A stretch of 50,035 nucleotides of DNA from Spirogloea muscicola (Eukaryota > Streptophyta > Zygnematophyceae > Spirogloeales > Spirogloeaceae). Both the position numbers and the translations under genes were made by a program. Where the stretch lies: assembly GCA_009602725.1 (NCBI GenBank), contig WELB01000006.1:1467552-1517586 (forward strand), read 5' to 3'. How positions within the stretch are numbered: the stretch's first letter is position 1; the number at the start of each line of letters is the position of its first letter. Below, piece by piece: positions 640 to 42,120 of this stretch. The notes below the pieces were generated by a model, which worked only from the letters and a program-made list of their open reading frames with translations, did no database searches and was not told the origin of the DNA.

Positions 640-895
640 GTGAAAAGAAGAAAGTGCTCGCCCATAGAGAAGAGGGGCTGGCAAAGGCAGCCCAAACAGA
701 ATGGACAATGTCCAAAGCCAAAGACAGAAGTGCTCGCCCCGCCCATAGAGAAGAGGGCTGGCAAAGCCAGCCCAAAAAGAATGGACAATGTCCAAAGCCA
801 AAGAAAGAGGTGCCGAAAAAGGACAACACGACCAAACACGACAACGCACTAGGGAAGCTCAGTACCTCTCGAGTGAGCAACATTAGGTCCGAGTA
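640..895 (-). mobile_element. RLE-type LINE, family C, 3' end with terminal stem-loops
   Basis: Read on the minus strand it starts with the last family C codons (tyrosine, then stop, near 862-895), followed by the family C 3' UTR (CGGCACCTCTTTCTTTGG) and two inverted repeats: GGACATTGTCC and GGGCTGGCTTTGCCAGCCC (755-773). A second, imperfect copy of the tail lies at 674-720. The same arrangement recurs at 2510-2765, 4940-5105 and 5180-5345 (minus) and at 39985-40160 (plus). Confidence 0.75.
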
Positions 896-919
896 GCTCG
901 TTGCAGAAGTAAGAAGAAA

Positions 920-1130
920 GTGCTCGCTCATTGAAAACATGGGCTGGAAAAGCCAGCCCAAAAAAGAATGAACAAAGTACGAGAAGGGGGCCAGGGGAAG
1001 CGCTACGAAAAACAAGCACACTAAGAAACAAAGCAGCTACGAGTCACTCAGTAACCCCTGCTAAGCAACCGCAGATCAGATATGCTAGGCTCCTGGAAGT
1101 GGGTCCCCTGGCCAGAGCCAGAGGCAGGGA
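920..1130 (-). mobile_element. RLE-type LINE, family B, C-terminus and 3' end
   Basis: The minus strand encodes the family B ending SISDLRLLSRGY plus stop (around 1046-1130), followed by the family B 3' UTR (GTAGCTGCTTTGTTTCTT, GCGCTTCCCCTGGCCCCC) and a perfect stem-loop GGGCTGGCTTTTCCAGCCC at 941-959. Very similar copies occur near 39115-39470, 40290-40500, 41075-41300 and 41370-41520, so this family is abundant in the window. Confidence 0.8.
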
Positions 1131-1224
1131 GGAGGCACTCCGCCGAGATCCAGAGGCGGCGGCCAGCTTGTAGCTGCTAAACGCTTGTATGGGCGAGCAC
1201 CTTCTTTCTTCTTGTAGGCCCTCC

Positions 1225-1430
1225 GAACCTTGGTCTATTTTTTTGCTGGCTTTTCCAACCCCTACCCTCAATGGACGAGCACTTCTTTTTCGCAGCCCTT
1301 GCCCCCATAGGGAGTGCCACTTCCGTAATGATCCGTAGCTGCTTTATTTCTCTGTGTGCTTGATTTTCTTAGAGCTTCCCCTTCTCTCTTTCGCAGCCCT
1401 TGCCCCCGTTGGGAGTGCTTCTTCTTGACA
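1225..1430 (+). mobile_element. Concatenated LINE tails (families B and D)
   Basis: Short pieces are joined end to end: a family B stem-loop tail (about 1233-1292), a family D tail (CAGCCCTTGCCCCCATAGGG, about 1293-1325), a piece of family B 3' UTR (about 1325-1380), and another family D tail (about 1396-1430). Each junction falls just after the GGGAG/GGACGAG end of a tail. There is no coding potential. Confidence 0.6.
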
Positions 1431-2608
1431 GAGCACGTCCTGCTCGCGTGTGGGCGGCGTGGGCAAGGGATCGTTGGAACGATACCGTGAAACCGGCGCG
1501 TGTCCGTCACAACCGCCAGGCGCATGCCGAAGACCTGGGCTAACGAACCGGCGGCGTGGAAGCCGGGCAGCGCCCCTAGCAGACCCGGCCGCCGGTCGAT
1601 GGGCCTGACGGGCAAGCCGCTGGAGGAAAGGTGTGTATTAAGAGATGGAAAGGCCATCTGTGGCCAAGTACAAAGGCAAGCACCAACACCCACAATGTCC
1701 AGGGTGCGACTGTGATGGCGACCCTGGGAATCTGTGGTGATGGGCATTACATTGCTTACTTCCACAATGGCGCGGTAGCCGGCGTCGCACATCAAGCCCG
1801 CCAGGGCGTCTCGTAGGAGATTGTGGACGCCCACCACCTCAGGGCCTGTGGGACACCGCAGCATGTGGGTGACTAGGTCTCCGCCCTCCGCACGAAAGCC
1901 ACACTCGCACTGAGTTACTCCAGTCACGCAGGTCGGGGGCAGGCCCAGGAACAGCTGGGGAAGCGTCCGGAATGCTTCAGGGCTGATTTTGAAAGCGTGG
2001 ATTGCGTGTGTGGTGAGCCAATCCGTTGCCCCAGGCGTTGCGAGCGATGTGAGACGTGCCAGACTCCTTGAATTGGTCTTGATATCCGGCATCGTCCTCA
2101 ACGCCTTGCGACGCTCGTCCTCAACTGCAGCAACGAGTCTGGCCTGTGCAGCTTTGTCTGGTGCTTGAGCAAACGCTGAGAAGGGGGTGAGGAGGGGTTG
2201 TAGGGAGGGGAAGGAGCAGAGTGCTGACTTCCGTATGCTCCTCAATTGCACATGGAATGCCAAGGAGCCTTCCTCCACTTCCACCTGGAGGAGATCCAGC
2301 CAGCGGCTGCCGAAAGCCCCGTGAACGTCGATCGTCAGGCCCGTGAAGTCGTCACCAACCGGGTGGTCTGCATATCTTCGCCTCTTACCCCGGGCCGCCA
2401 GGCCGACCGCATGCCCTGCAAACGACGCCGACCTGGTGGAATTGACGCAGGCGAAGCAGTCAGTTGTCACCACCTCGGCGATGATGCGGGACCGCCGCCG
2501 GGCCCAAAGCCAAGCCCAAAAAGCATGGACAATGTCCAAAGCCAAAGAAAGCGAAAGCGCGGCCAGATTGACTGTTGGCTGGGAAAGGCCAGCCAAAGGA
2601 ATGGACAA
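1268..2608 (-). pseudogene. Chimeric LINE open frame: family B/C endonuclease piece fused to internally deleted family A copy
   Basis: An uninterrupted frame of about 446 codons mixes parts from different families. Near its start it carries a family B/C endonuclease-like segment (VVTTD motif, then YADHPVGD and DVHGAFGSRWLDLL). At about 2270 it switches to the family A region EVEEGSLAF, continuing through the zinc knuckle (CECG, then HMLRC) to the first endonuclease aspartate (RTLDIVG). There it jumps into family A 3' UTR sequence (about 1620-1700), so roughly 500 bp of coding sequence present in the copy at 27589-29145 are missing. Translation then reads through foreign tail sequence. No RT catalytic domain is present. 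It is a recombined relic, although the frame is open. Confidence 0.75.
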
Positions 2609-3560
2609 GGTCCGAAGGAGCCTGATTGCAAAGGACTAGGACTAAGACATCAGCCAGGGAGAAGAAAGAGGTGCCGAAAAGGGACTCACTACAAACCACG
2701 GCCAAAAAACACACGACGATGCAAAGGAAAACTCAATACCCGCGAGTGAGCAACATCAGGTCGGAATAAAGAAAGGAAGTGCTCGCCCATTGAGGAATTG
2801 CTTGCTGCAGGGAACGAGGCACTCCGCCGAGACCCAGAGGCGGCTGTGAAAAGCCAGCCCGAAAAGAATTGACAAAGGTTCGAAGGGGTCTAAACCGCCG
2901 TCAGAACGGGTGTAGAATGAATTACTCAGTAGAGATGAGTGATGAGCCTCAAATCCGACAGAAGCTGCCTGAAAGCAATCCCCCAGACCAGCCCCGATCC
3001 TCAAAGGGCGCGCCCTTCTCCCTGACGATAGCCAGAGGCTGCAGCGAGAGCACGGCCAGCACGCAGATGCAAGGCGTGGGCCATGAACCGCTGGAGGGAG
3101 ATTGACTTCTCGCACTGTTCGGTTTTTTGGGCTGGCCTTTCCAGCCCCTATCCTCAATGGGCGAGCCCTTTCTTCTTGATTGACAGACGCATGCGACAGA
3201 CTTGGGCCAGCGAGCCAGCGGCGTTGGAGTCAGCCGGCTTCTTTGCCGGCTCACCTCGCCTGCGGGACACAGCGCGCCGCGCAAGCCTGGCGAGCAGGTC
3301 GAGCCACTGGGACGCGAGAGCCCCGTGCACATCCACGGCCAGGTGTACGAACTCGTCCCTGGCAGGGTGGTCTGCAGACCTTGCCGCCTTGCCGCGAGCG
3401 GCGTTCGCCGCTGCTCGGCCAGCCCTCTAGGCAGAAAGCCCCGGATTGGCTCGATCCACCACATCGGTGGTGACCACATCGTCGATGACGCGCGGGCCGC
3501 CGCCCGGAGTGGACGCCACCAGGTCGACAACGAAAAGAGCAGCTGGGGGCGTTGGTTGGG
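2495..3560 (-). mobile_element. LINE patchwork: family C and D 3' ends and endonuclease-region fragments
   Basis: Minus-strand pieces in order: partial tail (2500-2610), family C ending with its 3' UTR (about 2640-2765), and family D ending with its tail (about 2840-2950). A plus-strand stem-loop tail lies at 3129-3165. From 3180 to 3560 on the minus strand are coding remnants with the recurring motifs VYRMRLS and DVHGALASQWLDLLA. No open frame covers the whole stretch. Confidence 0.6.
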
Positions 3561-4960
3561 CTCTGCTCAAAGGCTGGACATGCAGCTGTGAACGCCGCTC
3601 GTGGCAAAGCGGCTAGTTACGCTGACGCGGAAGGGGACGAGTTCGTCCCACTGGCCGTCGAAGTGCACGTGGCTTGTAAGTCTCAGCGGCTAGACCTGTT
3701 GGCCCGGCTTGCAGGATGCGCTGAGTCCCGCAGGCGAGGTGAGCAGACCGACTTCAACGCCGCTGGCTCGCAGCTCAGGTCTTTTGTATGCGCCTCTAGA
3801 TCTCACTCCAGCCGTCCATGGCCCACGCCTTGCACCTCGTGCTGGCCGTGCTCTAGCTGCAGCTTCTGGCTGTTGTCAGGGGGATTGCTTTTTAGCTGCT
3901 AGTCTTTCTTTTCTGCGGCTCCTTACACACGTTACCAAGTGGTTCATCCTACCGGCCAAGCTCTGAGACAGCGCTTTTGGCCTCTTCGGGGTTTTGTCAG
4001 TTCGTATGGGCTGGCCACCCTTGCCTCCTTTGGGAGAGCCAAACTCCTTTACAGCCCCCGCCCCCTTTAGAAGTGCTCACTTCCTTTGTGCTTGGCCACT
4101 CAGGCCCTCCGTCAATTAAATACACACTCCATTTTTTGGCCCCTTCGATCTTGTTCACTAATTTTGTGAGCTGGCCAATCACTACTACTCAAGAGTTTTT
4201 GTTTGAAAGAGCTGCTTCACATTGGAGCGGTCAACCACATTTTGGGTGACCACGTCGCCTATGACACGCGGGCCGTCGCCCGGCGTGGTGGCCACCAGGT
4301 CGACCCGCCGAGTATCAAGTCCATCAGCCCTCTGCGCTATCTCAAAACGGGGCAAGGAAGGATTACTCATTAATGACGAGTGAGGAGCCTTAGATCCGAC
4401 AAACTAGCTGGCGGGAAACCATCCGCCTGACATTAGCCAGAGGCAGCAGCGAGAGCACGGCCAGCACGCAGGTGCAAAGCGTGGGCCATGAACCGTTAAG
4501 AAGAAAGGGCTCGTTCCCCTGGCTGTGGACGTGCACGGGGCTCTCGGGTCCCAGTGGCTCGAGCTGCTGGCCTGGCTTGCACGGCATGCTGTGTCCGCAG
4601 GCGCGGTGAGCCGGCCGACTTCAACGCCGCTGGCTCGTGGATCCAGGTCTATCGTATGAGATTGTCGGTCTCCCTTCAGTGGTCCATGGCCAAGCCTTGC
4701 ATCTGCGTGCTGGCCGTGCTTTCGCTGCGGCCTCCGGCTTTCGTCAGGGAATAGTTTTCCTGCAGCTAGTCTGTCGGATTTGAGGCTCCTCACTCGTAAC
4801 TACTGAGTGGTCCATCTCCCCCCCCGAACTGCCATAGCTTCTTCAGGCCCCTTCGTAGCTGCTAAGCGCTTTTTGACCCCTTGGGCCCTTTGACAACTCT
4901 TTTCGGGCTGGCTTTTCACAGCCCTTGCAGAAGCAGAAAGTGCTCGCCCATAAAGAGAGG
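3560..4960 (+). mobile_element. LINE patchwork: family D C-termini and 3' ends, family A tail
   Basis: 3590-3960 is a family D-like C-terminal region ending in a degenerate LRLLTHV. 4000-4215 carries a family A-like 3' UTR (TTGGCCACTCAGGCCCTCC, TTAAATACACACTCC) and tail. 4230-4510 is a minus-oriented endonuclease-region fragment. 4510-4800 is a plus-oriented C-terminal region ending LRLLTRNY and stop (4774-4800), followed by the family D 3' UTR and stem-loop GGGCTGGCTTTTCACAGCCC (4905-4924). Plus- and minus-oriented fragments abut, so this is not a simple tandem array. Confidence 0.6.
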
Positions 4961-6300
4961 GGCTGGCAAAGCCAGCCTAAAAAAAATGGACATGTCCAAA
5001 GCCAAAGAAAGAGGTGCCGAAAAAGGGACTACACTACAAAACACGGCAAAAATACAAGACGATGCAGAGGGAAGCTCAGTACCCGCAAATGAGCAACATC
5101 AGGTCGGAATAGCTCGATGTAGGGAAAGAGGCACTCCGCCGAGACCCAGAGGCGGCGGCCACAGCACGGCCTGCTAAGAAGGTGCTCGCCCATTGAGAAG
5201 AGGGGCTGGCAAAGCCAATCCAAAAGAATGGACAATGTTCAAAGCCGAAGAAAGAGGTGCTGAAAAAGGACTACACTACAAAGTGCAAGACGGTGCAGAG
5301 GGAGATGCAGATGGCTGCTCAGTATCCACGTGTGAGCAACAGCAGATCAGAGTAACTCGGAGCAGGAGAAGTGGAACTCTGCCGAGACCCGGAAGCAGCA
5401 GCCATAGCACGCTCGCGTGTGGGACGGCGTGGGCAAGGGAAAGCAAGAGCTCGCCCACAGGGAGCGTTGAAACGATATCGCCAGGCGCATTCGGTGCGAG
5501 CGAACCGGCGGCGTTGAAGCGGGCATCACCCCTGGACATTTGGACACTGTCCATTCTTTTTGAGTTGGCTTTGCCAGCCCCTCTTCTCTATGGGCGAGCT
5601 CTTCTTCCTGGCAGACCCGGCCGCCGGTCAATGGCTGACGGGCAAGCCGCTGGAGGAGATTCAGCCAGCGGCTGCCGAAGGCACCGTGGACAGCCATCGC
5701 CAGGGCCGCGATCCCCCCATTGGGAGTGCCACTTCTTCTATTGAGGATAGGAGCTGGACAAGCCAGCCCAAAACAGAATGAACAGGAATATGGAGAGGCG
5801 CATGCGGTATACCTGGGCAAACGAGCCAGCGGCGTTTAAGTCAGGAGCCACTTCTTCTGCTGATGAGAAATGTGCAGGATGGGCATGTGGGCGTGGTCTC
5901 GATCGCCACCGTGTGCCCTGCCCCCAGGAAATGCCGAACGTGGCATCCCCAAGGAGGTCATGAGCAGCCGTTCGCTCGCCTCCTTTTTGCTTTCCACAGC
6001 GCAGGACGTGCGCCGGCACGTGCGCCGCCTTTCTCCGACAAGAATGGACAAGGTCTGAACCGCGCTGAGGTCTGAAACGCGCTGAAACACAGACCTAAGC
6101 AAGAGAAGAAGTGGCACTCCTAATGGGGGCAAGGGCTGCGAAAAGCCAGCCCAAAAAGAATTCACAAAGGTTCAGAGGGGCCTAAGAGCGGTGAGCAGCT
6201 ACAAAAGAAGAAGACAAAGGGGCCTGAGGATGCAATGGTAAAACAGGGGGAGGATGGATCACTCAATAAGTACGAGTGAGGAGCAAGAGCAGGCGGGCTA
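4940..6300 (-). mobile_element. LINE patchwork: family C ends, nested family C tail, family D end
   Basis: Two family C 3' ends lie on the minus strand (4940-5105 and 5180-5345). A family C coding fragment (about 5405-5690, minus) is interrupted at about 5535-5610 by a plus-oriented family C tail (GGACACTGTCC, then a TTGGCTTTGCCAGCC stem-loop), which reads as insertion of a tail into another copy. 5740-5850 is a further fragment. 6110-6290 is a family D 3' end whose last codons (LLLTRTY, stop at about 6263) lie on the minus strand about 0.4 kb upstream of the monooxygenase gene. Confidence 0.6.
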
Positions 6301-6459
6301 CGCGTGGAGCGACCGAGCATCGTAACCGGGCCTGGCCAGATTGGCACGGGCTGCAAGCGGAGGAGAAACAATCCACGGACTGCCAGACGGACCCGACGAG
6401 GCACAAGGCGTGGGGGCGGGCTGAGACCCGGCCGGGCGTACAAATATGTCCTCCTCCGC

Positions 6460-6535
6460 CTCCACCGCCACCGCCGCCGCCGTCGCCGCCGCCAACAGCG
6501 CGCGCGGCGGCGCCCGCCCGGCCGGACGAGGCGCC
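6460..6535. repeat. CCG/CGG trinucleotide-rich tract upstream of the FMO coding region
   Basis: A run of imperfect CCG repeats (GCCGCCGCCGTCGCCGCCGC type). It is open in several frames, giving low-complexity Ala, Pro or Arg translations that should not be taken as genes. Similar tracts occur at the 5' ends of the nucleolin, VPS15, kelch-ACBP and exostosin genes. Confidence 0.6.
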
Positions 6536-6696
6536 GCCGTCCTCCTCGGACCGCCGCCGGTGCCACGGCATTGCTGTGGCGTCCCTGCGCCGTCTCCCCG
6601 CTTGGCCTCGTCCTGTCCGCCGGCGCTGCAGTGCTCCGCGCGCTTCGTGCCTGTCGCGGCGCTTTGGCGGGCCGTGGCAACAAGCTCGGCCTCCGG

Positions 6697-9600
6697 ATGG
6701 TCGCCGCGCCAGCCGACGGCGAAGGCTGCGCCGCCGCCGCCGCCGTCCTGGCGACGCCAGCCGGGAGCGTGTGGCCAGACTCCGGCGGCGCACAAGGCTC
6801 TGCTTCCCGGCATGCTGCCGCGGCGGTCTGCTCGAGCTCGGATGATGAGCGAATGGCGTTCCAGACAGCACATAGCGGGCGAGAGCCTGGGGATGTCCCA
6901 CTGCGCGACGAGCACCGGTGGATTCTCCCTGCATCTTCTGCGGAGCGCAACAGCGAGCTTCGCCTCCCAAGCGAACCGGCAAACGAGCGCGGCGGCTCTC
7001 TGCCGTGCCAGCAGGCTGTCAGCGACGAGGCAGCTCAGGACGCTTGCTGTCGCGGGAGCTCCGAACAGTGGAGGACACCATCAGCTGACAGCACTCTGTC
7101 TGCTAAGCGAGTGGCTGTGATCGGAGGAGGTGTCAGCGGCATCGCAGCCTGCAAGGTGCTGACGGAAGACGGCCACAACGTCACAGGTCAGTGGACAATG
7201 TGAGCCTCCAATAGGTGCTTGTGCATGCGCAGAGGAAGGGCAGTGTCCTTCAAGACCTCGGCAGCGGTTCTGAAAGGCTCTTCGTGCTCTGCCCTCGGCC
7301 CCGCAGTTTTTGAGGCCAGGGGCAGCATTGGCGGTATCTGGTCCCACACGTATCCGTCGACGGCGCTCCAGACTCCTAAAGAGGGTTACAGGTGACGGTT
7401 ACAGCCGTGACTGCACGTGTAGGGCCGCCGCCCACTGGTCATGGCTGGCTATGTCCGTGAGACGCACAACTGCTTCCTAACGGCCACACAGAATCTCCTT
7501 CTAAGGTAGATAGTTGAGAGGTATCCTTTTGGTATATAGGTGAGAGGTTAGGGTGCCCAGCTGCTCATGTCCTGGATGTTTTTGAAGCCGCAGCCTGGTG
7601 TGGTGGCAGGTTTTCGGACTGGCCATGGCCGGACTCGGTGCCGACATTCCCGACACATGAGCAGGTCATGGAATACCTGAGCACCTACGTCCGGCACTTC
7701 AAGCTCGGGGCAAGGTTCCGGCTGAACACCCGCGTGATGAAGATGACCAGACTCCCAGGTGAAATTGTTCAACAGGATCTGCGCACTCCGTGTCTTTAGG
7801 CCAAGATGAGTCTATGCACATTCTTCCAAAGACGGATGCTGAGAAGGAGCATGGGCAAGGACTTGTAACAGCTGATCAGGTGTCAAGAAGAGCAGGAGTT
7901 GAGACACTTACAGTGCTCGATATACTGCGCTGGGCATCTGTACAGTTGCACCTGGAGGCCAAGCAGGTTGGAGCCTGATGCTGGAAGAGCGACGACCCGG
8001 TAGCTTGCAACCTCAAGAAATAGTGCAAGAGGTGCGACTGTAAGAGATGTGTATCAGAACACTTGCAAGTCCTGAGTTGCATGCAGAGTTTATTTCAAGT
8101 TTGCATCGGTGGCATCCAATATTGGACGAATATCTGCTGATTTGCTGATTGTGTGCGTGGCACAGCAGTTCGACTTCGTTGTTATGTGCTGCGGGTGCTT
8201 TGGAGATGTTCCAAAGCTGCCATACTTTGAGCCAGGCAAAGGGCCGGAGGTTTTTCAGGGGACGACTCTACACTCAGCTCAGTACTCTGAGCTGGACAAG
8301 GTCGGCACTGAGAAGCTCCTGCATGGCAAGAAGGTTGTGGTTGTTGGCTATCAGAAGACCAGCATTGATGTAGCCATCGAGGCCGCGGAAGTGAACAGAG
8401 GTCCACACTACTTCTACCAGACCCCTGCATGCCACTGTGCTTGTGCAGGTGCCATGTGTGATGTGTTGCTCCCTTGACAGTGGCTGCAGTATATTTGTCT
8501 ATCATTGCTCCTAAAAGTCGCGTTATATGACCTTGCTGGCCTCTCTGCTCGCAGATGTCGCCCACGCCAGTTGCACACTCCTTTTTCGGAAGCCGCACTG
8601 GCTCCTCCCTCGGTCGCAGCTGCTCTATGGCCTACCCTTGAGTTACCTGATTTTGTCGCGGTTTGCGGAATTTTGGGTTTCAAAGCCAGACCAGTCACAA
8701 CTCCAGACACTCAAGCAAACACTCCTGTCGCCTTTGGTGCACTTCCGTCACCAAACCCGTGGCTTGTGTAGCAGTGTTCACTAGCCGTGCAACTTGCGCC
8801 ATCGGCAATAGTTGGGAGGACAAGGACCATTTGTTCTTGTTAGAGCAAGGCAGCGGAGCTGACTTGGGAGCTTCTGGCTTGGTGCAAGGCTGGCCGTTGG
8901 ACGCATCTACTTATGCTCAAGAAGCCTGTTTGCTGCCTCTTCTCCCCAGAGGTCACTGTACTTTGGCCTCATTGAGATGTACCTGCTTTACAACTTCCCG
9001 CTCAGGAAGTATGGGCTGGTCCCAGAGCACTCGTTTTTCCAGGACCTTTCTGCGTGCATCCTTCCCCAGCTGCCCGACAGCTTCTTCTCACTCATTGAGC
9101 AGGGAAGCATCCAGCTTCAGGTACTGGGCGCCTGATGCTGACCTTCATGTGCAGGAATATGTCAGTTGCGACTGAATTGCTTGCCAGAGCCTGAGGTCAG
9201 ATGGTCGATTGCCAAATGTGCCCCGCCCTGCAGCAAAGCAGGCTGTGGCACTTCACACGTAAGGGCGTTGCCCTGATGGGCGAGAAGGAGATTGAGGCTG
9301 ACGTGGTTCTGCTCTGCACTGGCTATGATGGCGCTTCAAAGCTCAAATCCGTACTCCCCTGTGTGTACAGGGATTGCCTAAGCACTCCAGGGGAGTGCCT
9401 CTACCTTTACCGGTGAGTGGTGCAGCCTCGACCTTGTCTAGCACTCTGACAACAGTCTCACTGCATACTATATGCAGCTGACTTCACTGCATGGTGCGCA
9501 CCTTGCCACATGCATCTTGGCCCAGAGGCACTCACCTCCTTCTTTGTCCCTGAGCCCTGGCCCCTCTACTTTTGCTTGTTGCCGATCTAGCAGGGGCATG

Positions 9601-10366
9601 CTTCATCCAGAAATACCGGATGTTGCCTTCCTTGGGTACCACGAAGGCCTTTCAGCGATTCAAAGTGCGGAGATGGGATCACGGTGGCTTGGGAAAGTCA
9701 CTTCTGGCACTCTGGTACTTCCTGGTGAGTCCCTGTCCTCTTGAGAATGCTCCTGAGCTGACTCCAGAAGCCATTTAATACCGGAGTGGAGGTTGGTGCT
9801 GTAGTTATTGTTCGCAAGACAAATTGAATGGCCTCCTTGCTGCGCAACATCTGTACCTGGCACTAACCAGAAAACCATTCTTAGCATACACAAGCTAATA
9901 AATATATCATGGTTTGGGTGCAGCTGGTGAAGTCATGGAGAGGGAGAGGCAGCATTGGCGAGCCTACAAGCAAAGGCAAACTCCATTCTTCCGTCGCGTG
10001 TCCTGCATTGCTCCAGTCCACATTTGGCATTACTCCACTCTTTGCCAAGACATGGGCTGGAACCCCCGCAGAAAGCCAGGTTTCTTGGCTAATATATTTG
10101 TCCCACACTCCAGCGTGGACTACTGCAGCCCTGCAGTAGTGGCTGATGATGAGCATGTTGCTGTGAGCTTCAATAGCCCAGCTTGCAAAGAGCAAGCACT
10201 TGTACAGGAACCTTCTGCAGTGCAGTGCCTCCACCATTGGGCCACTGAAAGGCTCCTGCAAGTCTGCGGTTGGTGGCTTGTGCTAGAGGCTACTTTCACG
10301 GGCGCCCTCAGAGGCAAAGGCAGCCGACAAGCTGGGATTCCAGTATGCGGAGCCAAGGAAGACTGA
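6697..10366 (+). CDS. Flavin-containing monooxygenase (FMO family)
   Basis: Predicted FAD- and NADPH-dependent monooxygenase of soft nucleophiles; substrate unknown. Exons: 6697-7186, 7307-7391, 7610-7758, 7967-8031, 8166-8400, 8555-8736, 8950-9120, 9234-9412, 9594-9724, 9924-10366; phases agree at every junction (the 8736 donor is the weakest). Visible motifs: FAD GxGxxG (VAVIGGGVSG, exon 1), GGIWSHTYPS (exon 2), the FMO signature FxGxxxHxxxY (FQGTTLHSAQY, exon 5), a second nucleotide-binding site VVVVGYQKTSIDVA, LFRKPHWLLP, and the C-terminal DMGWNPRRK. The NADPH site has a GxxKTS form rather than GxGxSG. The start is uncertain: in-frame Met codons at 6697 and 6853 give a long, low-complexity N-terminal extension before the FAD motif, and an additional upstream exon is possible. 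Predicted length is 657-709 residues. Confidence 0.9.
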
Positions 10367-15690: not shown

Positions 15691-15719
15691 CTCTTACTTT
15701 GAGGCACTCAAGGCATCAA

Positions 15720-16345
15720 GTACGGAGGAAGACTCCGCCAGTAGAGGGCGATGGCTGTGATTGGCCGGCCCAGGAATAAATTTGAACAGCACTGAAAGCG
15801 GCCGGAAAAGCATTGAAGCCTACAGCAACTTAAGTGCCATCGGTCTGGCCTCTGACGGCCGTTGCCTTACATTGGAAGAATCTTCGTGTTTTTGAAACAA
15901 ACGACGGCCAAATGGCCAAGTACGAAGGCAAGCACATCTAGAGGCGTACATCATCGACAGCAGATTGACCCGCTCAATAACCACGGGTCAATACATAAAG
16001 GTCGCTGACTGATGCCTGGATACTGGATGGCAGATACGAAGCCCTTCTGCCACCAACTAGAGCTCGTCCAGCTTTCTGGTGCAAAGCATTAGCCTGAGCA
16101 CGCTGCAAACAGGCCGAAACGCGTCGTCGCAAGAACGACAGTTGCAGCTGGCAGGCCCATCTCAGTCGGAAACACAAAAAAGAGCTGTTTTGGCGGACCT
16201 GCGACCATGCACTCTGGCTTGAAACCATTTCATCAAAACCCTGACATGTCTGCTGTACTCCGCCAGAGACACTCCGCTGCATCTTGTCTGCTACACTCTT
16301 CCGAGGTCCTCTTTCTTGGGCTGGCCTTCGACAACCACCTTCTGG
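15720..16345 (-). mobile_element. RLE-type LINE, family A, C-terminal fragment with 3' UTR
   Basis: The minus-strand frame at 15974-16282 encodes the family A C-terminus (FLRRRVSACLQRAQANALHQ, KAGRAL, ending SDLYVLTRGY). After the stop, the reverse complement of about 15880-15975 matches the 3' UTR after 29145 (GTGCTTGCCTT, GTACTTGGCCA), and the family A tail is at 15739-15775. The fragment is 5'-truncated. 16310-16345 on the plus strand carries a degenerate stem-loop tail (GGGCTGGCCTTCGACAACC). Confidence 0.85.
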
Positions 16346-18370: not shown

Positions 18371-21300
18371 TCATGTACCTGTCCCCGAGGCAGCAAGATT
18401 GACCTTGGCACGAGAGCCACCACCCCGGCCGCCGCCACGGCTCCCCCCCCGGCCTCCACGGTCGCCGCCCCTGCCTCCACGTAACCCGCCCCTGCCTGCA
18501 AGCAACATCCCTGAGGTAAGCGCATATTTTGCAAGCACAAGGATGATTGAGGTCACAGGCACTCGCACCCGCTACTACAGGGGTTACACAAACTTGCTTA
18601 CAGCAAAAGTTTGTAGGTACATAATCACAACCAGACAAGCTCCATACAAAGCTGTTCCGACTAGATCAAATTCATGCAGTCAGCGGAGGTGAGGCTGCAT
18701 TTACCTCCACGGTCGTATCCGCCTCCTCCACCACGTCCACCGCCCCTTCCTCCCCCTCTACCTCCCCCTCTGCCACCAAAGCCGCCACCTCCTCCCCCAC
18801 CACCACCTCCACCACTGGAATTCGCGTCTACTACCAAGCTCCTGCCTCCACACTCAATTCCGTTGAGATCCCCAGCCTTTGCTAAGCTGTCCTCTGAGTC
18901 AAACTCCACGAACGCGAATCTATGGCAAGAACAAAACAACGTATATGAGACGAGCTTGCTGATGGAAGAGCATGAAAACATTCTCATGGAGTCAATCATG
19001 AAGTGCACAGTTGCATCCGTGTCGGACGATGACAACAGATAGATTGGCCCAGGCACAGAGCTCAACAAAATGGAGCTGAATTCACCCCTTAATCTGGCCT
19101 GTCTCCCTGTCAGTTGGAATGCGAACGTTTGTCACATTTCCGCACTCGGCAAATACATCTGTCAGCTGTTGCCGAATCTGCAGGCAGGACATGAAGTGGT
19201 GCTCCGAGAAGAGCATCAATTTCCTGATGAATATGACTAATTTTGTTGCGAAGCATTGATCGCGTCAAATAATGTGCCACCCGTTTCTTATGTGGACAGA
19301 TGCTTGTCCTTTAGCCCCAACCTCTAGGAGATATAAATGTGCGCAGACTTACGGTGTCTTCGTCAGCGTCACGATTGAAGTTCTTAACAAATACACTCGG
19401 GCCGCGGTCACTACGGGGTGCGCTGTAATCGCTGCCACCGCCACCTCCTCTGCGAGAACCAAACAACGCCTTACAGCTTCAGATTTTTGCGAGCAACTTT
19501 AGAATACAAAAGACGAGTGTTGAAAACTGACACCCCTAAACAACCAATTGGCATCCTTGGCTCAGCAGTTCCTGCTTAAGCTTTTTCTATTCAGATGTAA
19601 GCTCCTTAAGAAAGGGCGAGGGCTGTGAAAAGCCAGACCGAAAAGAATGGCAAGGTCCAAAGCAGCCCTGCCTACTGAGCAAGACACATTTAAGAACGAC
19701 TAATACAAGCTTGTGTTGAATGAGTAAAAAAAAAAGAGCAAACCGGCAAGTGGTCCATACCACTGCTTGTCCTGTACACGAGCAATAGCTTCCGGGCCTT
19801 GAGACTATGATGAGTCAGATATGGTGAGTCAACGTGCTCACCCACGGCCTCCGCTTGGCGGCGTTCTAGCTTCATCCCTGCTGCCACGCTCCCTGGCAAT
19901 GTCGCAGTAGATATCCCGCCCAAGAAGATTTTGTCCACTTTTTGCTAGTGCCTTCGTCAGAGCAAGCAATAAGTGTGAGAATTACTAGAAGCAGCACTGA
20001 GGCAGCCACAGTCCTAGAAGCATCCAGCATTGGCCCTCTTGAAAATTGCTCAATGCTGCAGCAGAGTCCATTGCAATCCTGTATTTTGGGTAAACATCAG
20101 CTATGGTTGTGTGATTTTGAAGACAAGTGTGATCTGGCACCTGAGATGCTACTACTAAATATGGGCAAGGCCAACCTTCTTCGCGGCTGCAGGAGTGGCA
20201 AACTCCACGTGTCCAAAGCCCCTGGACCGACCATCCTCGCCCATAGCAATCCGCACATCTGCCACTTCTCCACAGTCCTTGAAGAACTCGTAGCTGCAAG
20301 ATTCATCGATGACATTGGTAGTGGTCTGTATAAGTGTATTGAGCTGCTACAAGAGATTCAGAAACACTCAGTAAATTTTCATCCGTAGTGCTGCTAATAT
20401 TGGACATCATTAAGCTGTAGCACTAAGTTGGCACTGTCACAGGACCCAAAAGAAGAGCAAACCGCCTCACATGCTATCATTATCGACCGCCCAGGCCAGG
20501 TTCTTCACAAACAACGTGGAGCTTCCGCCAGTGTCAACCTCGTCCTTTGCCTGTGCCTGCTTTTGCACAGCAGGCGACTGCAGCAGCAGCCGACAAAAAG
20601 CAGCACAGTATCAATGCTCCCTGATCTGCTTGTGACAACTGGCATGCCGTAAAAGCTGCGCATCAGCAGGAGCAGCCTGAGCATCTCCAAAAGGGAAAAC
20701 TTGCAATTGCATTCTGGATATGCAATATGCCCGCTAAGTTCTTTCACACCTCCTTCTGCTTCTTAGATGGAGGAGCCTTTGGCTTGAGCTCCTCGTCCTC
20801 CTCATCATCATCCTCCTCCTCATCATTGTCCTCCTCGTCCTCATCGTCGTCCTCCTCCTCCTTTGCCGCTGCTCCAACCCCCGGCTTCCCGGCTGCTTTG
20901 GAGGCAGGCTTGCCCTTTGCGGGTTCTTCTTCCTCATCGTCATCATCATCTTCCTCGTCCTCGTCGTCCTCCTCGTCCTCCTCGTCCTCGTCGTCATCCT
21001 CGTCGTCATCAGTGGCCTTCTTAGCTGGAGCAGGCTTCGCAGCAGCCTTGCCAGGCGGCTTTCCTGCTGCCTCGTCCTCGTCTTCATCATCATCGTCGTC
21101 CTCATCGTCATCCTCGTCGTCGTCCTCGTCGTCATCCTCGTCGTCGTCCACCTTCGCCTGCACCGGCTTGGCAGCCGCCTTGACTGCGGCTGCCTTCGGC
21201 TTCTCCTCCTCTTCGTCATCCTCATCGTCGTCATCATCCTCCTCGTCATCATCATCATCCTCGTCGTCGTCCTCTTCCTCGTCCTCCTTCTTTGCAGCAG

Positions 21301-27220: not shown

Positions 27221-27224
27221 CGAA

Positions 27225-27300
27225 TTTTTTTTCTTCTTTTTTCTGGGCTGGCGTCATAGCCATCGCCCTCTACTGGAAGATGCTTTCTCCTGCTAGAGGC
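27225..27300 (+). repeat. Family A type LINE tail upstream of the long family A copy
   Basis: CCCTTCGAATTT leads into GGGCTGGCGTCATAGCC and CATCGCCCTCTACTGGAAG. It matches, in reverse, 498-560 and 15739-15775. This tail lies immediately 5' of a truncated family A copy, the same tail-to-body arrangement seen in the two large clusters. Confidence 0.6.
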
Positions 27301-27539: not shown

Positions 27540-29260
27540 CCCCGGGGGCATCGCTGCCAGCGGGAGCTCGCTTTGCCCCACCAAGAACGTGGCATGGTCA
27601 CCACGCCCCCTCCCCACCAACCTCCAGCTCCCACCAGGCTGCCAGACCCCTGCCAATGGGCTGGCTGTTCTCAAAGTTCCCCTTGGCACACCATCCCACA
27701 TTGCGGAGGACTTGCGTGAACGCCTGCAGCAACACCTTGCCCCCTTTCCCTCCCTTCCCCTCCTCGGAGATCCGCAGCTGGCGCTGGCCATCCTTACTCG
27801 CTGCATCGGTCAACGAGCTGGCTACCTGCAGCGGACAGTCGCCGCAACGGACATGGTGGGCGAGCTGTACAAGGAGTTCGACACCTCCCTCCGGCAAACC
27901 CTGGCTTCCCTGATTCAACACCCATCCTTCCCCTCACCTTCATCCTCCCTGCAGGCATCCCTTCCCACACGAATGGGCGGCCTGGGCTGCCGGTCACTTG
28001 AACAGACGGCGCAGGCAGCCTTTCTCGGTTGCTGGCACCAGGTTGCCTCCCTTCTTCCCTTGCGCTTCCCTTGCCTGGCCGGCCCTGCAGCCGAGGTGGA
28101 GGAAGGCTCCTTGGCATTCCAAGTACAACTGAGGAGCATCCGGGAGTCAGCACTCGGCTCCTTCCCGTCCCTACAACCCCTCCTCACCCCCTTCTCAGCG
28201 CTTGCTCAAGCACCAGACAAAGCGGCACAGGCCAGACTCGTTGCGGCAGTTGAGGACGAGCGTCGCAAGGCGTTGAGGACGATGCCGGATATCAAGACCA
28301 ATCCAAGGAGTCTGGCACGTCTCACATCGCTCGCAACGCCTGGGGCAACGGATTGGCTCACCACACACGCAATCCACAACGCTTTCAAAATCAGCCCTGA
28401 AGCATTCCGGACGCTTCTCCAGCTGTTCCTGGGCCTGCCCCCGACCTGCCTGATTGGAGTAACTCAGTGTGAGTGTGGCTTCCGTACGGAGGGCGGAGAC
28501 CTAGCCACCCACATGCTGCGGTGTCCCACAGGCCCTGAGGTGGTGGGCGTCCACAATCTCCTACGGGACGCCCTGGCGGGCTTGATGCGCGACGCCGGCT
28601 ACCGCGCCATCGTTGAAGTGAGCAATGTAATGCCCATCACCACGGATTCCCAGGGAGGCCATCACCGTCGCACCCTGGACATTGTGGGTGTACAACCTGG
28701 CGGAGGCCCACGAGCTTTGGTTGATGTGGTGGTGACTGAGGCATACAAGAGTTCCGCTTCCACACACATTGCTGGCCACGCAGTGGGAGGTGCTGAGCAG
28801 AAAAAGCTCCGACACTACTCAGACTACCCCCGCAGTGACCACCTCCTCCCGGCCGCAATCGACACTTTCGGCTGCTTGGGTCCTCGCTTCCATACCCTAC
28901 TCGAGAACATAGCGAGTCTGGGATATGCACGACGCGAGGATATGCTCCCAGCCCAGATGGGTATGCCGGCAGCCTATCTGTCATTTCTGCGACGTCGAGT
29001 GTCAACCTGTCTGCAACGAGCTCAGGCGTATGCTCTGCATCAGAAAGCTGGTCGAGCCTTAGCTGCTGGCACAAGAGCTAGTCAATTGCCGTCCGGTATT
29101 CGAGCGTCAGCTAGCGACCTCTATGTGCTGACTCGTGGTTACTGAGCGGGTCAGCTTAGCAGCAGGTGACGTACATTTGTCCAATGTGCTTGCCTTTGTA
29201 CTTGGCCACACATGGCCTCCCCATCTCTTAATATACACGCATTTTCTTTAGGCCAGGGCC
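27540..29260 (+). mobile_element. RLE-type non-LTR retrotransposon, family A, longest copy (5'-truncated)
   Basis: One frame (27589-29145, 518 codons, open further upstream) covers the C-terminal part of a LINE protein. It starts after the RT catalytic core, so no YxDD box is present. Order: RT thumb-like region (LKVPLGTPSHIAEDL; GGLGCRSLEQTAQAAFLG), zinc knuckle (CECG, then HMLRC, a CxC-x11-H-x3-C spacing), then a restriction-like endonuclease pattern (RTLDIVG followed about 13 residues later by DVVVTEAY), and a C-terminus ending SDLYVLTRGY. The 3' UTR runs to about 29260 (TTGGCCACACATGGCCTCCC, TTAATATACACGC). RLE elements belong to the CRE/R2-like side of LINE diversity; algal RandI/Dualen elements carry such a domain too. 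The clade cannot be fixed without the RT core. This copy cannot be autonomous. Confidence 0.88.
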
Positions 29261-29324
29261 GGCCTAAGCAGAAGTAGGGTTAGGGCGTCCGGAGACCGCC
29301 GATGTGAGGCCCCCTCGAGCCTCG

Positions 29325-29374
29325 CGCCGCGCGCGGCGGCGGCGGCGGCGGTGGCGGCGTCGGCGGCGGCGGCA
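29325..29374. repeat. CGG-repeat tract directly upstream of the VPS15 start codon
   Basis: An imperfect GGC/CGG run that ends at the ATG at 29375. It lies in the presumed 5' UTR and resembles the tracts at other gene starts in the window. Confidence 0.65.
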
Positions 29375-37257: not shown

Positions 37258-38325
37258 CAGTCCGCCGCAGTCGAAGAAGCGTGCCCTGCAGGTGGTCAGA
37301 GTACGACAATGGAGCCCCCATCATGCTGCCGGCAAAATCCCGTCATACAAATATACCCATTCAGGTGAGCCCACTGGTGCATCTACACTCCCGTTGGTAG
37401 CTGTCAAGGGGGGTTACTGAGGGGTGCCAGGTTCTTCTCAGGTGTTTAGGCTGTCCTCCCTTGATCGACTTGTTCATGGCTGTCTCCGCCAGCAAGTCGA
37501 AGCGATGGACACAACATTCTTTGCTATCCTCTGAACCGAGGTAGTCTTCCACAGTTGGCGGTATGCCTTCTACCAGAATGATATGGTGAGGCTGCAATTG
37601 CAGCCGATGCTTGTCAACTCAAAGCCGTATTGATGTTGCCACTCAAGTGCACCCTGGCTCCACTAGGACGGGTTGATGTAGAGGGAATGGATCAACAACG
37701 AGCAGCATGACTATTGAGTTTTAGCCGGGGGCTTCTGCTCAGAGTGACAGAAATTAGTCCATAGGCTGCTTGCTGCCACCACGAGAAGAGGCTCGGTTAT
37801 GTCATCCTTTGGTGGCCCACAACAATTACCATGGTGCTCAGGACAAAGCGGCACTAACGCTGCAGGCGCAAGTCACTGTGTTATGTGACAGCCATGCAGT
37901 TGCCAGGATGCAAGGTACGAGCACGCGCAGGCATTGGCTCTGCATGTCCGCAGGGTGGCGTGCGCGCCAAGAGTGCAGGTGGCGCCCATGTCTGCATGAC
38001 AAAAGCTGGGCTTTACCTGCTGCGGAGGGGCTGAGCAAGCAAGCTCGATAGTGCGGACAAGGGAGAGGGGCCTTGCTGCGATAACACGGAAGCGATGCGA
38101 GACTGGCGGTGATAGCATGTCATGGCCATTAGTAATCACCGGCTCCACCAAGCCCTGTGCTTGCAGCTCGCCAAAAGGGAGCGGGCCCCAGAGGGAGAAG
38201 GCGCACAGTGTGCAGAAATCGATACGGTGGCCACTTTAAGCCAATACGCTGTTTTGCAGTAGCTTTTGTTCAGGCAAAAGCTAGTGCAAAGTGGGGGTAC
38301 ATGGAACGAAGCCCTATGCAAAGGT
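37258..38325. other. Intergenic region after VPS15, no gene recognised
   Basis: About 1.07 kb with only short frames and no recognisable domains. It could contain unrecognised 5' exons of the downstream kelch-ACBP gene, but I could not identify any. Confidence 0.4.
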
Positions 38326-38329
38326 CCAT

Positions 38330-39480
38330 TGCTTTCGAGCTGGCTTTGTCAGCCCCTCTTCTCTCTGAGCGAGCCATTTCTTCTTCCTATGCTAAGGTGG
38401 CTAAGGTAACATTGTGAACAGTGTACCCACGAGTGAAGACATACAAATCTGACAGGCTAACTTGGGGACCTGGAACCGCCTCGGACCAGTGGCCCGACTT
38501 AGAGAGGGTGACGGCAACGGCCAGCCCGAGAGCCTGTCAAAAGAAGAAAGGGAGAGAGGGAGGAGAAGAGAGAGAGACTCTTCCGAACGAGCCTTGAGGC
38601 TCCTCACTCGTAGCTACTGTGTGGTCCTTCCTCCACCCGTTCTGCCATAGCATTTTCAGGCCCCTCCGTCGTTGTGGCCCCTTCGAACCTTGGTCACTTC
38701 TTTTCAGGCTGGCTTTTCACAGCCCTTGCCCCCGTTGGGAGAGCCACTTCTCTTCCTTCAGTTTGCCCTAGACTCTGCCTGAACAATATATCGTCTTGAA
38801 TTGGCCTCCATTTCATTTCATGCGCCCCGCGCGCCTTCTCTCTAACGGGGCGAGGGCTGGGCCGTTGGGCGCTCGGTGGCTCGAGCTGCTCAACCAGCTC
38901 GCCCGCCACACCATCGTCCGCCGTATCCAAGGGGGAGCCGGTGGACTTTCCTGCAGCCGGGTCGTTGGCGCAAGTGTACCGTATGCGCCTGGCCGTCTCG
39001 CTGCAGAAGGTGCTGCAGAGGTCTTTGGCTGAGTGACTCTCCTGTAGCTCTTTGGATTTTGTCCATTCTTTTTTGGCTGGCTTCTGCCAGCCCCTCTCTT
39101 CTATGGGCGAGCTCATTCTCTCTGGCCCGCGCGCTGCACCTGCCTGCCGGCAGAGCCCTCGCTGCTGCCTCTGGTTCTGGCCAGGGGACCCACATCCACG
39201 AGCCTAGCATATCCGACCTGCGGCTGCTTAGCAGAGGTTACTGAGTGATTCGTAGCTGCTTTGTTTCTGTGTGCTTGTTTTTCTTAGCGCTTCGCCAGGG
39301 GACCCACTTCCAGGAGCCTAGCATCTCTGATCTGCGGCTGCTTAGCAGGGGTTACTGAGTGATCCGTAGCTGCTTTGTTTCTTTGTGTGCTTGTTTTCCT
39401 TAGCGCTTCCCCTGGCCCCATTCTCGTACCTCGTTCAGTCTTTTTTGGGCTGGCTTTCCCAGCCCCTATACTCAATCCCA
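38330..39480 (+). mobile_element. LINE cluster: family C tail, family D end, family B C-termini in tandem
   Basis: In order: family C-type tail (38337-38390); family D end and tail (38585-38755, GGCTGGCTTTTCACAGCC at 38707-38724); family B internal segment and endonuclease-like region (38760-39045, LGARWLELLNQLARHT); family C-type tail (39060-39112); family B C-terminus (39115-39243, SISDLRLLSRGY, stop); then a second family B C-terminus (39292-39361) joined at CCAGGGGACCCAC, with its own 3' UTR and stem-loop (39447-39465). All pieces are in the plus orientation. Confidence 0.75.
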
Positions 39481-40160
39481 CCAGATTGGCGTCGCTTGCA
39501 GGGCACGCGGTCGGCCAGGCGGCCCGAGGGAAGGAGCGAAAGTATGCCGACCACCCGGTTGGTGATGCATTCGCGGCCCTGGCGATTGATGTGCACGGGG
39601 CCTTCGGCAGCCGCTGGCTGGATCTCCTCCAGCGGCTTGCCTGTCAGGCCATTGATCGGCTGCCGGGTCTGCCAGGAAGAGGAATTGGTCGCCCATTGAG
39701 GATAGGGGCTGGAAAAGCCAGCCCATAAAAGAATCAACAAAGCACGAGAAGGGGGCCAGGGGAAGCGCTAAGAGAAACAAGCACACACTGAAACAAAGCA
39801 GCTACGAATCACTCAGTAGGAGCGCTGCCCGGCTTCAACAGGGCCATTTCGCTTGCACAAGTCTTCCGCATGCGCCTGGCGGAATCGCTTCAACGCTCCC
39901 TTGCCCACGCCGTCCACACGCGAGCAGGCCGTGCCATGGCTGCCGCCTCTGGTTCTCGGCAGAGTGCCTCGTCCCTGCAGCCAGTTTTTCCGACCTGATG
40001 GTGCTCACTCGCGGGTACTGAGCTTCCCTTTGCATCGTCGTGTGTTGTTTGCCGTGGTTTGTAGTGTAGTCCCATTTCGGCACCTCTTTCTTTGGCTTTG
40101 GACATTGTCCATCCTTTTTGGGCTGGCTTTGCCAGCCTTCTTCTCTATGGGCGCGCGCTT
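39476..40160 (+). mobile_element. LINE cluster: endonuclease-region piece, reverse family B tail, family C C-terminus
   Basis: 39480-39690 (plus) encodes the endonuclease-region motifs ADHPVGD and DVHGAFGSRWLDLLQRL. 39690-39820 is a minus-oriented family B 3' UTR with a perfect stem-loop at 39706-39724. 39830-40160 (plus) is a family C C-terminus (VFRMRLAESLQRSLAHAVHT, then SDLMVLTRGY with a frameshift just before it) with the family C 3' UTR, GGACATTGTCC and a stem-loop at 40119-40137. Confidence 0.7.
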
Positions 40161-41075
40161 CTCTTCTCTATGGGCGAGCACTTTCTTCAATGGGCGAGCA
40201 CTTTCTCCTGCTGAAGGAGAAAGCGCGGCAAGATTGACTGGTGGCTGGGAAAAGCCGCGCGCCCATCCCCCCATCGGACGGCGCGCGCGCCGGAGAAGAA
40301 AGTGCTCGCCCATTGAGGATAGGGAAAGCCAGCCCAAAACGAATGAACAAAGTACGAGAAGGGGGCCAGGGGAAGCGCTAAGGAAAACAAGCACACAAAG
40401 AAACAAAGCAGCTACGGATCACTCAGTAACCCCTGCTAAGCAGCCGCAGATCAGAGATGCTAGGCTCCTGGAAGTGGGTCCCCTGGCCAGAGCCAGAGGC
40501 AGCAGCGAGGGCTCTGCCGGCACGAAGGTGCAGCGCGCGGGCCATAGACCTCTGCAGCGAGACGGCCATGCGCAGACGGTACACTTGCGCCAGCGACCCG
40601 GCTGCATAAAAATCTACCGGCTCCCCATGGAAGCGACGGGCGATGGTGTGGCGGGCGAGCTGGGTGAGCAGCTCGAGCCACCGAGCGCCCAGCAGAAGAA
40701 GAGCTCGCCCATAGAGAAGAGGGAATTCCGTGTCTGGAGAAGAGGGGCTGGCAAAGCCAACCCAAAAAGAATGGACAATGTCCGAAGCCAAAGAAAGAAG
40801 TGCCGGAAAGAGAGAGAAGGCGCGCGGGGCGCATGAATTGAAAGGGAGGCCAATTCACGCCAATACATTGTTCAGGCCGGAAAAGGACTACACGCGCCCC
40901 ATGGATGTCACTTGCCAACGGAAAGAACTCGTCTTCCCACGGATGGTCGGCGTACTTGAGCTCTCAAGACCGAGCGGCGCAGGCGACCGCATACCCAGCC
41001 TTGGTGGCACGTTGGGCTGGGTGTGAGCGGTCGTATGCGTCGGTTGTCACCACGTCCAGGAGAAAACGTGGCCCG
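40161..41075 (-). mobile_element. LINE cluster: minus-oriented family B copy and endonuclease-region piece
   Basis: 40290-40700 (minus) is a good family B C-terminus: VYRLRMAVSLQRSMARALHL, then AGRALAAASG and SISDLRLLSRGY (stop about 40430), followed by its 3' UTR. 40725-40800 is a minus-oriented family C-type tail. 40826-40890 is the family B internal segment. 40895-41075 (minus) encodes an endonuclease-region piece with PRFLLDVVTTDAYDRS, which aligns by eye with the family A segment beginning DVVVTEAY. Confidence 0.7.
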
Positions 41076-42120
41076 CCGGCCTGTGCCGGCGGAGCCCTCG
41101 CTGCTGCCTCTGGCTCTGGCCAGGGGACCCACTTCCAGGAGCCTAGCATCTCTGATCTGCGGCTGCTTAGCAGGGGGTTACTGATTGATTCGTAGCTGCT
41201 GTAATTCTTTGTGTGCTTGTTTTTCTTAGCGCTTCCTCTGGCCCCCTTCTCGTAGTCTTTTCATTCTTTTTGGGCTGGCTTTTCCAGCCCTTATCCTCAA
41301 TGGGCGAGCACTTTCTTGTGGGGTGGCCACCAGGTCTACGTGACGGGCGTGGAGACCGTCGGCCCTTTCCTAAATCTGCGGCTGCTCAGCAGGGGTTACT
41401 GAGTGATTCGTAGCTGCTTTGTTTCTTTATGTGCTTGTTTTCTTAGCGCTTCCCCTGGCCCCGTTCTCGTACTCTGTTCATTCTTTTTTGGGCTGGCTTT
41501 TCCAGCCCCTATTCTCAATGGGCGAGCACTTTCTTCTTTTCCAGCCCCCTATCCTCAATGGGCGAGCACTTTCTTTCCTGGAGCGGCATGACGCCGGAGT
41601 GCTCCGCTGCCACCGAGAAGAGAAGCGCGGCCAGATTGACTGGTGGCTGGGAAAGGCCAACCCAAAGGAATGGACAAGGTCTGAGGGTCACAGCCTCCAC
41701 CAGGATGCCATGCAGCCGGGTCGCTGGCGCAAGTCTATCGAATGCGCCTGGCCGTCTCGCTGCAGAGGTCCATGGCCCGGGCGCTGCACCTTCGTGCCGG
41801 CAGAGCCCTCGCTGCTGCCTCTGGCTCTGGCCAGGGGACCCACTTCCAGGAGCCCAAGCATCTCTGATCTGCGGCTGCTTAGCAGGGGTTACTGAGTGTC
41901 TCGTAGCAGCTTTGTTTCTGTTACTTAGCGCTTCCCCTGGCCCCCTTCTCGTACTCTGTTCATTCTTTTAGTCTGCACTCGACTCTGCCTGAACAATGTA
42001 TTGGCTTGAATTGGCCTCCCTTTCAATTCATGCGCCCCGCGCGCCTTCTCTCTTTTTCGGGCTGGTTGTTCCAGCCCCTATTCTCAATGGGCGAGCACTT
42101 TCTTCATGCATCGCATCGCG
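41075..42120 (+). mobile_element. LINE cluster: three family B 3' ends in plus orientation
   Basis: Family B C-terminal codons and 3' UTRs recur at 41090-41300, 41370-41570 and 41700-41970. Stem-loops lie at 41272-41290 and 41490-41508. A partial tail (CCAGCCCCCTATCCTCAATG) is duplicated side by side near 41540-41570. 41971-42046 is the family B internal segment, ending in a stem-loop with a changed loop at 42059-42077 (GGGCTGGTTGTTCCAGCCC). The last tail ends about 0.5 kb before the first recognised exon of the kelch-ACBP gene. Confidence 0.75.

Follow-up and report, generated by a model that had tools for sequence, protein, structure and literature searches.

A 3'-terminal hairpin common to diverged R2-like LINE families of Spirogloea muscicola and its probable role in an RNA handle

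The terminal 50 kb of contig C6 in Spirogloea muscicola (Zygnematophyceae; GenBank assembly GCA_009602725.1, contig WELB01000006.1, positions 1,467,552 to 1,517,586; 50,035 nt, hereafter the window) contains numerous fragments of long interspersed nuclear elements (LINEs) that end in the same small hairpin, while the remainder of their 3' untranslated regions (UTRs) differs from family to family. The question raised by this locus is why a short terminal stem-loop has been retained when the sequence adjoining it has not. From the sequence of the window and of the 153-Mb genome to which it belongs, the single genome studied, we conclude that the hairpin is probably the core of the RNA handle with which the members of an old and extensive group of R2-like LINEs end at the 3' side.

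An initial annotation of the window named nine hairpins, and each was found at its position. The general form that it gave, GGGCTGGC-loop-GCCAGCCC, is present as well, with the qualification that it occurs exactly only once in the window and that the other copies are 1–3 bases off; many copies contain the 7-bp stem GGGCTGG/CCAGCCC. A search for GGCTGG-N5-CCAGCC with up to two mismatches yielded 27 matches in the window, 10 of them exact, compared to 7.35 ± 2.46 in shuffled sequences. As none of 100 shuffles reached 27 matches, the pattern is strongly over-represented. On the strand with the U-rich loop, the hairpin lies near the end of a LINE fragment and is followed by a short linker and then by ...GGGCGAGCACTTTCTTC or a family variant. 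A covariance model built on the family-A tail identified 22 tails in the window at an expect value (E) of 1e-5 or below. Two family-D tails, three family-E tails and a cut-off family-C tail at 4905 (E 0.21) lie beyond those 22; the D tails score weakly in this family-A model (E 1.6e-4 and 0.32), and the E tails were spotted by eye. The copy at 42059 had been described as loop-changed, a description that we do not retain because its loop, TTGTT, is that of three family-A copies with intact open reading frames (ORFs), L018, L019 and L020 (L numbers denote individual loci). No gathering-score match to Rfam was obtained in the window, L018, L090, L085 or L097, and the literature searched contained no description of this tail, which is no proof of absence. 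The features of the window are listed below with the E of the covariance model, family by family.

41469–41536 (+): family A tail (hairpin 41490–41508), E 3e-31
41252–41318 (+): family A tail (hairpin 41272–41290), E 2.9e-23
42039–42105 (+): family A tail with loop TTGTT as in L018–L020 (hairpin 42059–42077), E 2.3e-19
39437–39476 (+): family A tail with its 3' part replaced (hairpin 39447–39465), E 8.5e-12
3110–3175 (+): family A tail (hairpin 3129–3147), E 3.2e-22
913–980 (-): family A tail (hairpin 941–959), E 3e-29
39678–39745 (-): family A tail (hairpin 39706–39724), E 1e-25
40295–40355 (-): family A tail, hairpin partly missing, E 2.8e-17
1225–1289 (+): family A tail, degraded, E 2.4e-11
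5737–5782 (-): family A tail, partial, E 5.1e-11
727–793 (-): family B tail (hairpin 755–773), E 2.7e-12
647–713 (-): family B tail, next after 727–793 in sense order (80-bp tandem), E 1.7e-18
4933–4997 (-): family B tail, E 1e-14
5175–5240 (-): family B tail, E 1.3e-18
5542–5608 (+): family B tail, E 2.5e-16
39054–39121 (+): family B tail, E 7.8e-16
40100–40165 (+): family B tail, E 3.6e-14
38324–38383 (+): family B tail, E 1.2e-10
40695–40783 (-): family B tail with additional sequence separating hairpin and terminus, E 1.1e-9
6105–6173 (-): family C tail, E 1.2e-10
38685–38753 (+): family C tail, E 5.3e-7
2772–2880 (-): family C tail, interrupted, E 5.9e-7
4905–4926 (+): family C hairpin, ending right after the hairpin (initially annotated as 4905–4924), E 0.21
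2548–2613 (-): family D tail, E 1.6e-4; elsewhere the D tail follows its own ORF
41617–41682 (-): family D tail, E 0.32; genome-wide DNA match of 99% over 67/69 bases
510–531 (-): family E hairpin, by eye; E tails were found elsewhere too
15750–15771 (-): family E hairpin, by eye
27245–27262 (+): family E hairpin, degraded, by eye
28294–29245 (+): family Y LINE copy, C-terminal part and 3' UTR, a related protein without the GGGCTGGC hairpin

Tails outside the window were sought with pattern, DNA and protein queries, and the results refer to the first 100 listed or the best 40–150 places; many LINE copies are masked with N, and each family has few representatives. The genome contains 2468 occurrences (1224 + 1244) of the terminal 17 bases of the main family and none of the reversed pattern; one exact form of the hairpin gave 583 + 590 matches, again with none for its reverse. 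We sampled 40 copies as alternate entries among the first 100 listed 17-mers on C1 and C2, a small, non-random sample chosen via the A/B terminus. The hairpin was present within 45 nt upstream of the terminal 17-mer in 31 of these copies; seven of the remaining nine are inserts of 18–43 nt that start inside or after the hairpin, and two have an altered hairpin. Among the matches listed for GGGCTGGTTGTTCCAGCCC (C1–C3), 31 of 39 copies have the exact 17-mer 10–11 nt downstream. The tail terminus, CAC-TTTCTTC or a family variant, is situated at the junction with target DNA. In all 11 long-ORF copies checked (family A, L018, L091 and L095; B, L022, L089, L090 and L102; D, L085 and L088; H, L097 and L098), the hairpin starts 53–97 nt past the stop codon, and additional copies of this type were seen beyond the 11; five of the 16 copies fetched were left out, their frame being shifted or broken near the ORF end. 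The placement of the hairpins at LINE 3' ends in the initial annotation is thus confirmed by 17-mer, hairpin and ORF alike.

The families that share this tail have diverged considerably. In the region preceding the reverse transcriptase (RT) domain (the pre-RT region), proteins of families A, B and D are 71–85% identical, A and B being closest (80–85%), and family H is 50–55% and family Y 41–46% identical to these three. In the C-terminal half, identities among A, B, C and D are 57–73% (C to A, B or D, 61–70%); family C was judged on this half alone, as its four full-length candidates (L021, L024, L025 and L026) are mostly N. Third positions at same-residue codons near the ORF end agree in 36–56% of cases for pairs of A–D and in 34–46% for A and Y, while the pre-RT third positions of A and B are 70% alike and hence not saturated there. 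Judged by these identities, families A–D are old. Upstream of the tail, the 3' UTRs of all six A–D pairs align no better than shuffles (z -1.0 to 1.9), whereas the last 57–61 nt of all six align strongly (z 6.1 to 13.3). The A and B tails are the closest pair, at 88% identity with 18 consecutive identical bases, although their UTRs are unalignable. A MAFFT alignment of the A–D tails placed the hairpins out of register and was discarded. The core of the H hairpin matches C and D, with 0 of 500 shuffles as good, and the Y tail has no match to any of the five families A, B, C, D and H. The hairpin is also carried by family E, of which we have tails alone. The matches across A–D and H indicate that at least five families with known protein ends have the inner hairpin in common, and its retention beside unalignable UTRs indicates that the tail is old and conserved. 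These results bear out, and extend, the proposal of at least four families with differing protein ends and UTRs that share a terminal hairpin, and its likening to stringent LINEs, in which a stem-loop near the 3' terminus is kept in an otherwise divergent UTR. Within the hairpin, the GGCUG/CAGCC bases are nearly fixed; the loop and an outer helix vary by family, and loops vary within families as well. Several long-ORF copies of family H (L096–L098) carry the shortest form of the hairpin tail. The 3' end of family Y is different, a short GGCC hairpin and ...AATATACACGCATTTTC, and long-ORF copies of this family exist outside the window.

Tails of families A and B fold better than shuffles (z -3.8, -2.6, -3.3 and -4.7). 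The outer helix, GUUCAUU/AAUGGGC in A and GUCCAUU/AAUGGGC in B, encloses the hairpin in three of the four tails folded; for the A2 tail, a different fold is the best one. In the fold of the literal family-E tail there is a distinct outer helix (the z of -2.9 for this family was computed on a non-literal copy), and the Y tail gave a z of -1.6. In 103 distinct rows, in an alignment fitted to the structure, four pairs of the outer helix are changed on both sides. The cells changed in this way number 22, above all 500 shuffles and all slid versions of the helix; the number of pairs with two-sided change shows no excess over shuffles (177/500), and 20 of the 22 cells belong to family C rows, in effect one lineage. 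We regard a tail structure of the predicted kind as well supported in A and B.

The long copies contain a single stop-to-stop ORF of 1130–1521 aa across L018, L019, L020, L022 and L085 (A, 1290–1357 aa; B, 1130 aa in L022; D, 1196–1521 aa). All 11 aligned members contain a reverse transcriptase (Pfam RVT_1). No Pfam match to an apurinic/apyrimidinic (AP) endonuclease was obtained at E ≤ 0.1 in these 11 members, five of which include the N-terminal part (the other six rows end before the N-terminus), or in L018, L009 and L011. Among solved structures, R2 proteins are the closest in sequence and rank above LINE-1. When the B-type L090 protein (983 aa) was modelled with AlphaFold (mean predicted local distance difference test score (pLDDT) 65), the seven best Foldseek hits of the model were R2 proteins; in a second structure comparison the R2 chains align up to residue 907–911, with low pLDDT. 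C-terminal CxC...H...C and RR-DLV...GGPR-DVV blocks are conserved, with C-C-H-C and D...D invariant in 11 of 11 rows. These blocks may represent a restriction-like endonuclease; no Pfam hit was obtained there. At the N-terminus, C2H2-like strings were seen by eye in L018, and zf-C2HC_2 was detected in one of 11 rows (E 4e-4). The combination found is that of an R2-like RT and a single ORF. Membership of the L2 clade is not supported, as no AP endonuclease was found in these members, and neither is membership of the L1 clade, as R2 proteins also rank above LINE-1 by sequence. R2 in the narrow sense, inserted at the 28S ribosomal DNA (rDNA) site, was rejected, as the 40 sampled copies have differing flanks and several lie within other LINEs. 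We conclude that the elements resemble R2-like LINEs of the restriction-like-endonuclease type, an assignment that makes no choice among R2, R4, NeSL, HERO and CRE. In families A, B, D and H, such single-ORF elements end in the shared inner hairpin (GGCUGG...CAGCC, with a mostly U-rich loop), and the C-terminal half of family C likewise ends in a tail that contains it.

The sampled inserts are 5'-truncated (median 87 nt; 16 of 40 are 75 nt or shorter), and T directly follows the terminus in 30 of 40. Flanking duplications were examined in 12 hand-picked single copies and eight pairs; two of the single copies are N, and five of the 10 that are readable share a 6–9 nt string on both flanks. Short truncated copies, T after the terminus and flanking duplications fit target-primed reverse transcription that begins at the tail end and stops early. 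The termini are also clustered: 19 of the 97 gaps among the first 100 listed are 1 kb or less, compared to 1.7 expected. At their 5' end, 11 of the 40 sampled copies abut a co-oriented LINE within its last 75 nt, and for eight of these 11 the neighbour retains its 3' end to within one base, with 0–13 nt separating the two copies; one of the 11 (L061) rests on a 21-nt match, and references A3 and B3 came from the sample itself. These neighbours include A after B, A after D and A after Y. At L053 (G000:C1:329969-330559), two family-A tails in head-to-tail order are flanked on either side by CCGAGTGGG. This single duplication around the pair implies that both A copies came in together, from two templates, and the arrangement looks like what template jumping would leave; template jumping is known for the R2 RT (PMC12203849). 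L045 and L071 look like nested insertions. Short arrays of LINE tails placed end to end, sometimes of mixed families, were also observed at 40138–40206 and 41497–41575 of the window, at L017:4731-5014 and in L081.

The most likely explanation for these results is that the tail serves as the handle by which the element RNA is taken up for reverse transcription. By analogy with the proteins of R2 and of L2-clade LINEs, which bind theirs, the element protein would bind the tail structure, and target-primed reverse transcription would begin at the tail terminus. Synthesis would often halt early, leaving very short copies, and an occasional jump to the end of a second RNA would generate head-to-tail tails. 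The UTR between stop codon and tail is free to diverge; the tail, inherited from a common ancestor, would be kept by selection in the active copies of each lineage. The pre-RT region would be the part that reads the tail, again by analogy with R2 and the zebrafish L2 LINEs (ZfL2). Binding of 3' RNA by R2 is reported to require motifs N-terminal to the RT (PMC4117753), and in ZfL2 the stem-loops are described as essential, the region before the RT as binding the stem-loop and the loop as decisive (PMC4176376).

Several results weigh against the hairpin being the core of an RNA handle of R2-like elements. The C and D tails fold no better than shuffles (z -1.3 and -1.2). In the inner helix, no pair is changed on both sides among the 103 distinct model-fitted rows, so that pairing as such is unproven there, and the selection for structure that had been read from the arms of the named hairpins is not borne out; compensatory change is confined to the outer helix, which the initial annotation had missed. 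The outer helix is unsupported outside A and B, and a duplex-energy permutation across seven families, which paired the 5' strand of each with the 3' strands of the others, did not single out the cognate pairing and was not significant (rank 798 of 5040), partly because the 3' segments of A and B are G+C-rich. The H tail does not match A or B significantly (277/500 and 42/500 shuffles as good). As for the class of element, the L090 model is of moderate quality, its TM-scores to R2 are low (0.23–0.28), and in a second structure comparison R2 and LINE-1 chains tie among the fold families listed. The conservation of the inner helix as sequence, without compensatory change, is what would be expected if the hairpin were no RNA signal and hitchhiked with the elements, either as a feature of the DNA or as a by-product of high G+C content. 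We consider this improbable, as the hairpin persists across families beside UTRs that cannot be aligned, and its position relative to the terminus is fixed. In addition to its role as a handle, the tail may act at the DNA level as a preferred site of insertion. That one recent tail spread through all copies, its likeness reflecting youth and not selection, has next to no probability. The best 150 A copies are indeed 95–98% identical to the query over the last 62 residues, but the low third-position agreement between families near the ORF end and the alignment of tails beside unalignable UTRs already contradict such a spread. The initial annotation would have given up its proposal had there been both no covariation and a single recent origin of the tail. 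Covariation is nearly absent, as described above, but a single recent origin of the tail is contradicted, and the proposal as a whole is therefore not overturned.

The likeness of the tails might also be maintained by exchange. If families traded tails or used each other's enzyme, a single machinery or repeated template switching would keep the tails alike, and the initial annotation had suggested that different families can use each other's machinery. The near-identity of the A and B tails despite unalignable UTRs and the mixed-family head-to-tail neighbours are in keeping with this proposal, as is the conflict between the pre-RT region, where A and B are closest, and the C-terminal half, which rejects an A+B grouping (approximately unbiased (AU) test, p 0.021). 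However, the other two groupings are not rejected in the N-terminal half (AU p 0.088 and 0.229). The alignment used for the AU test included the family C row out of frame, whereas the identities given for C use the correct frame. Both silent-site and amino-acid identity between families drop from the N- to the C-terminal half (L018, L022, L085 and L009); as silent-site identity declines along the gene inside families too (B–B4 and D–D2), the closeness of A and B in the 5' half may be only slower change there. Of the 40 sampled inserts, the 16 that are at least 100 nt long showed no body-tail chimera, as judged by eye with no formal test, and the sole pair with a shared duplication joins A with A. 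In zebrafish, ZfL2 proteins are reported not to use swapped stem-loops, the loop being the specific part (PMC4176376). The shared use of machinery is thus not upheld by the copies sampled, and we consider exchange quite unlikely as the cause of the likeness. A related possibility, also unlikely, is a lock-and-key arrangement in which the tail and the pre-RT region have a history of their own. Families A and B would then have a near-identical tail together with a pre-RT module that was recently common to them or exchanged, whereas in endonuclease half and UTR they differ from each other as much as from D, and families that match would form one recognition group. If this were true, the RNA of one matching family could serve another for priming or as the target of a jump, which would produce mixed head-to-tail arrays.

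For L2-clade LINEs there is already proof of a terminal stem-loop that is read by the enzyme, and for R2 there is proof of 3' RNA binding. The elements described here resemble R2 in their nearest proteins, by sequence and by Foldseek, in their single ORF and, by analogy, in a 3' RNA of the kind that is recognised by the R2 protein (PMC4117753). They differ in that the copies are not in one rDNA site and have varied flanks, some of them inside other LINEs. They also differ in that sequence conservation of the R2 3' UTR between species is reported to be low (PMC12203849), while the hairpin sequence is kept here between families. In UnaL2, ZfL2-1 and ZfL2-2 of the L2 clade, a terminal stem-loop with similar stem and variable loop is described as needed for retrotransposition (PMC4176376); those elements belong to another clade, no AP endonuclease was found here, and the tail here is known from sequence. 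A 3'-end structure common within a lineage is reported for some plant L1 LINEs and short interspersed nuclear elements (SINEs) and for Chlamydomonas SINE/LINE pairs (PMC3747384). Those LINEs are of the L1 or RandI type and share the tail with SINEs, whereas no SINE-like carrier was seen by eye among our small sample of 40 copies. Zepp and ZeppL of green algae insert in nested fashion at existing copies and so give rise to 3'-end arrays (PMC8226300). Copies were likewise often inserted at or in earlier ones here (11 of 40 copies; 19 of 97 gaps), but Zepp and ZeppL belong to the L1 clade and the proteins here are R2-like. R2-like elements of the German cockroach also have a single ORF and leave 5'-truncated copies at unrelated sites (PMC7650587); their host is an animal, and they are not known to share a terminal hairpin.

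Three further features of the window were observed. A repeated stretch ending in ...GAATTGGCCTCCCTTTCAATTCATGCGCCCCGCGCGCCTTCTCTC adjoins tails at about 300–372 (-), 38760–38855 (+), 40816–40888 (-) and 41972–42056 (+); it is also present in L021 and L025 and may represent the 3' end of yet another element. At 20789–22000, a stretch of 1.2 kb holds several long (TCC/TCG/TCA)n arrays with interruptions. Beside the LINE cluster, at 6280–8477, there are exon-like ORFs with a match to flavin-binding monooxygenase (FMO-like; E 4.3e-6 for the second).

Several R2-like families coexist in this genome, and in four of them long intact ORFs are combined with this tail. The R2 group is reportedly now under development for RNA-templated gene insertion. 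One 60-nt tail retained against unalignable UTRs amounts to a natural mutational scan of a LINE tail, and the genome offers ready pairs of protein and tail with which cognate recognition may be compared with cross recognition.

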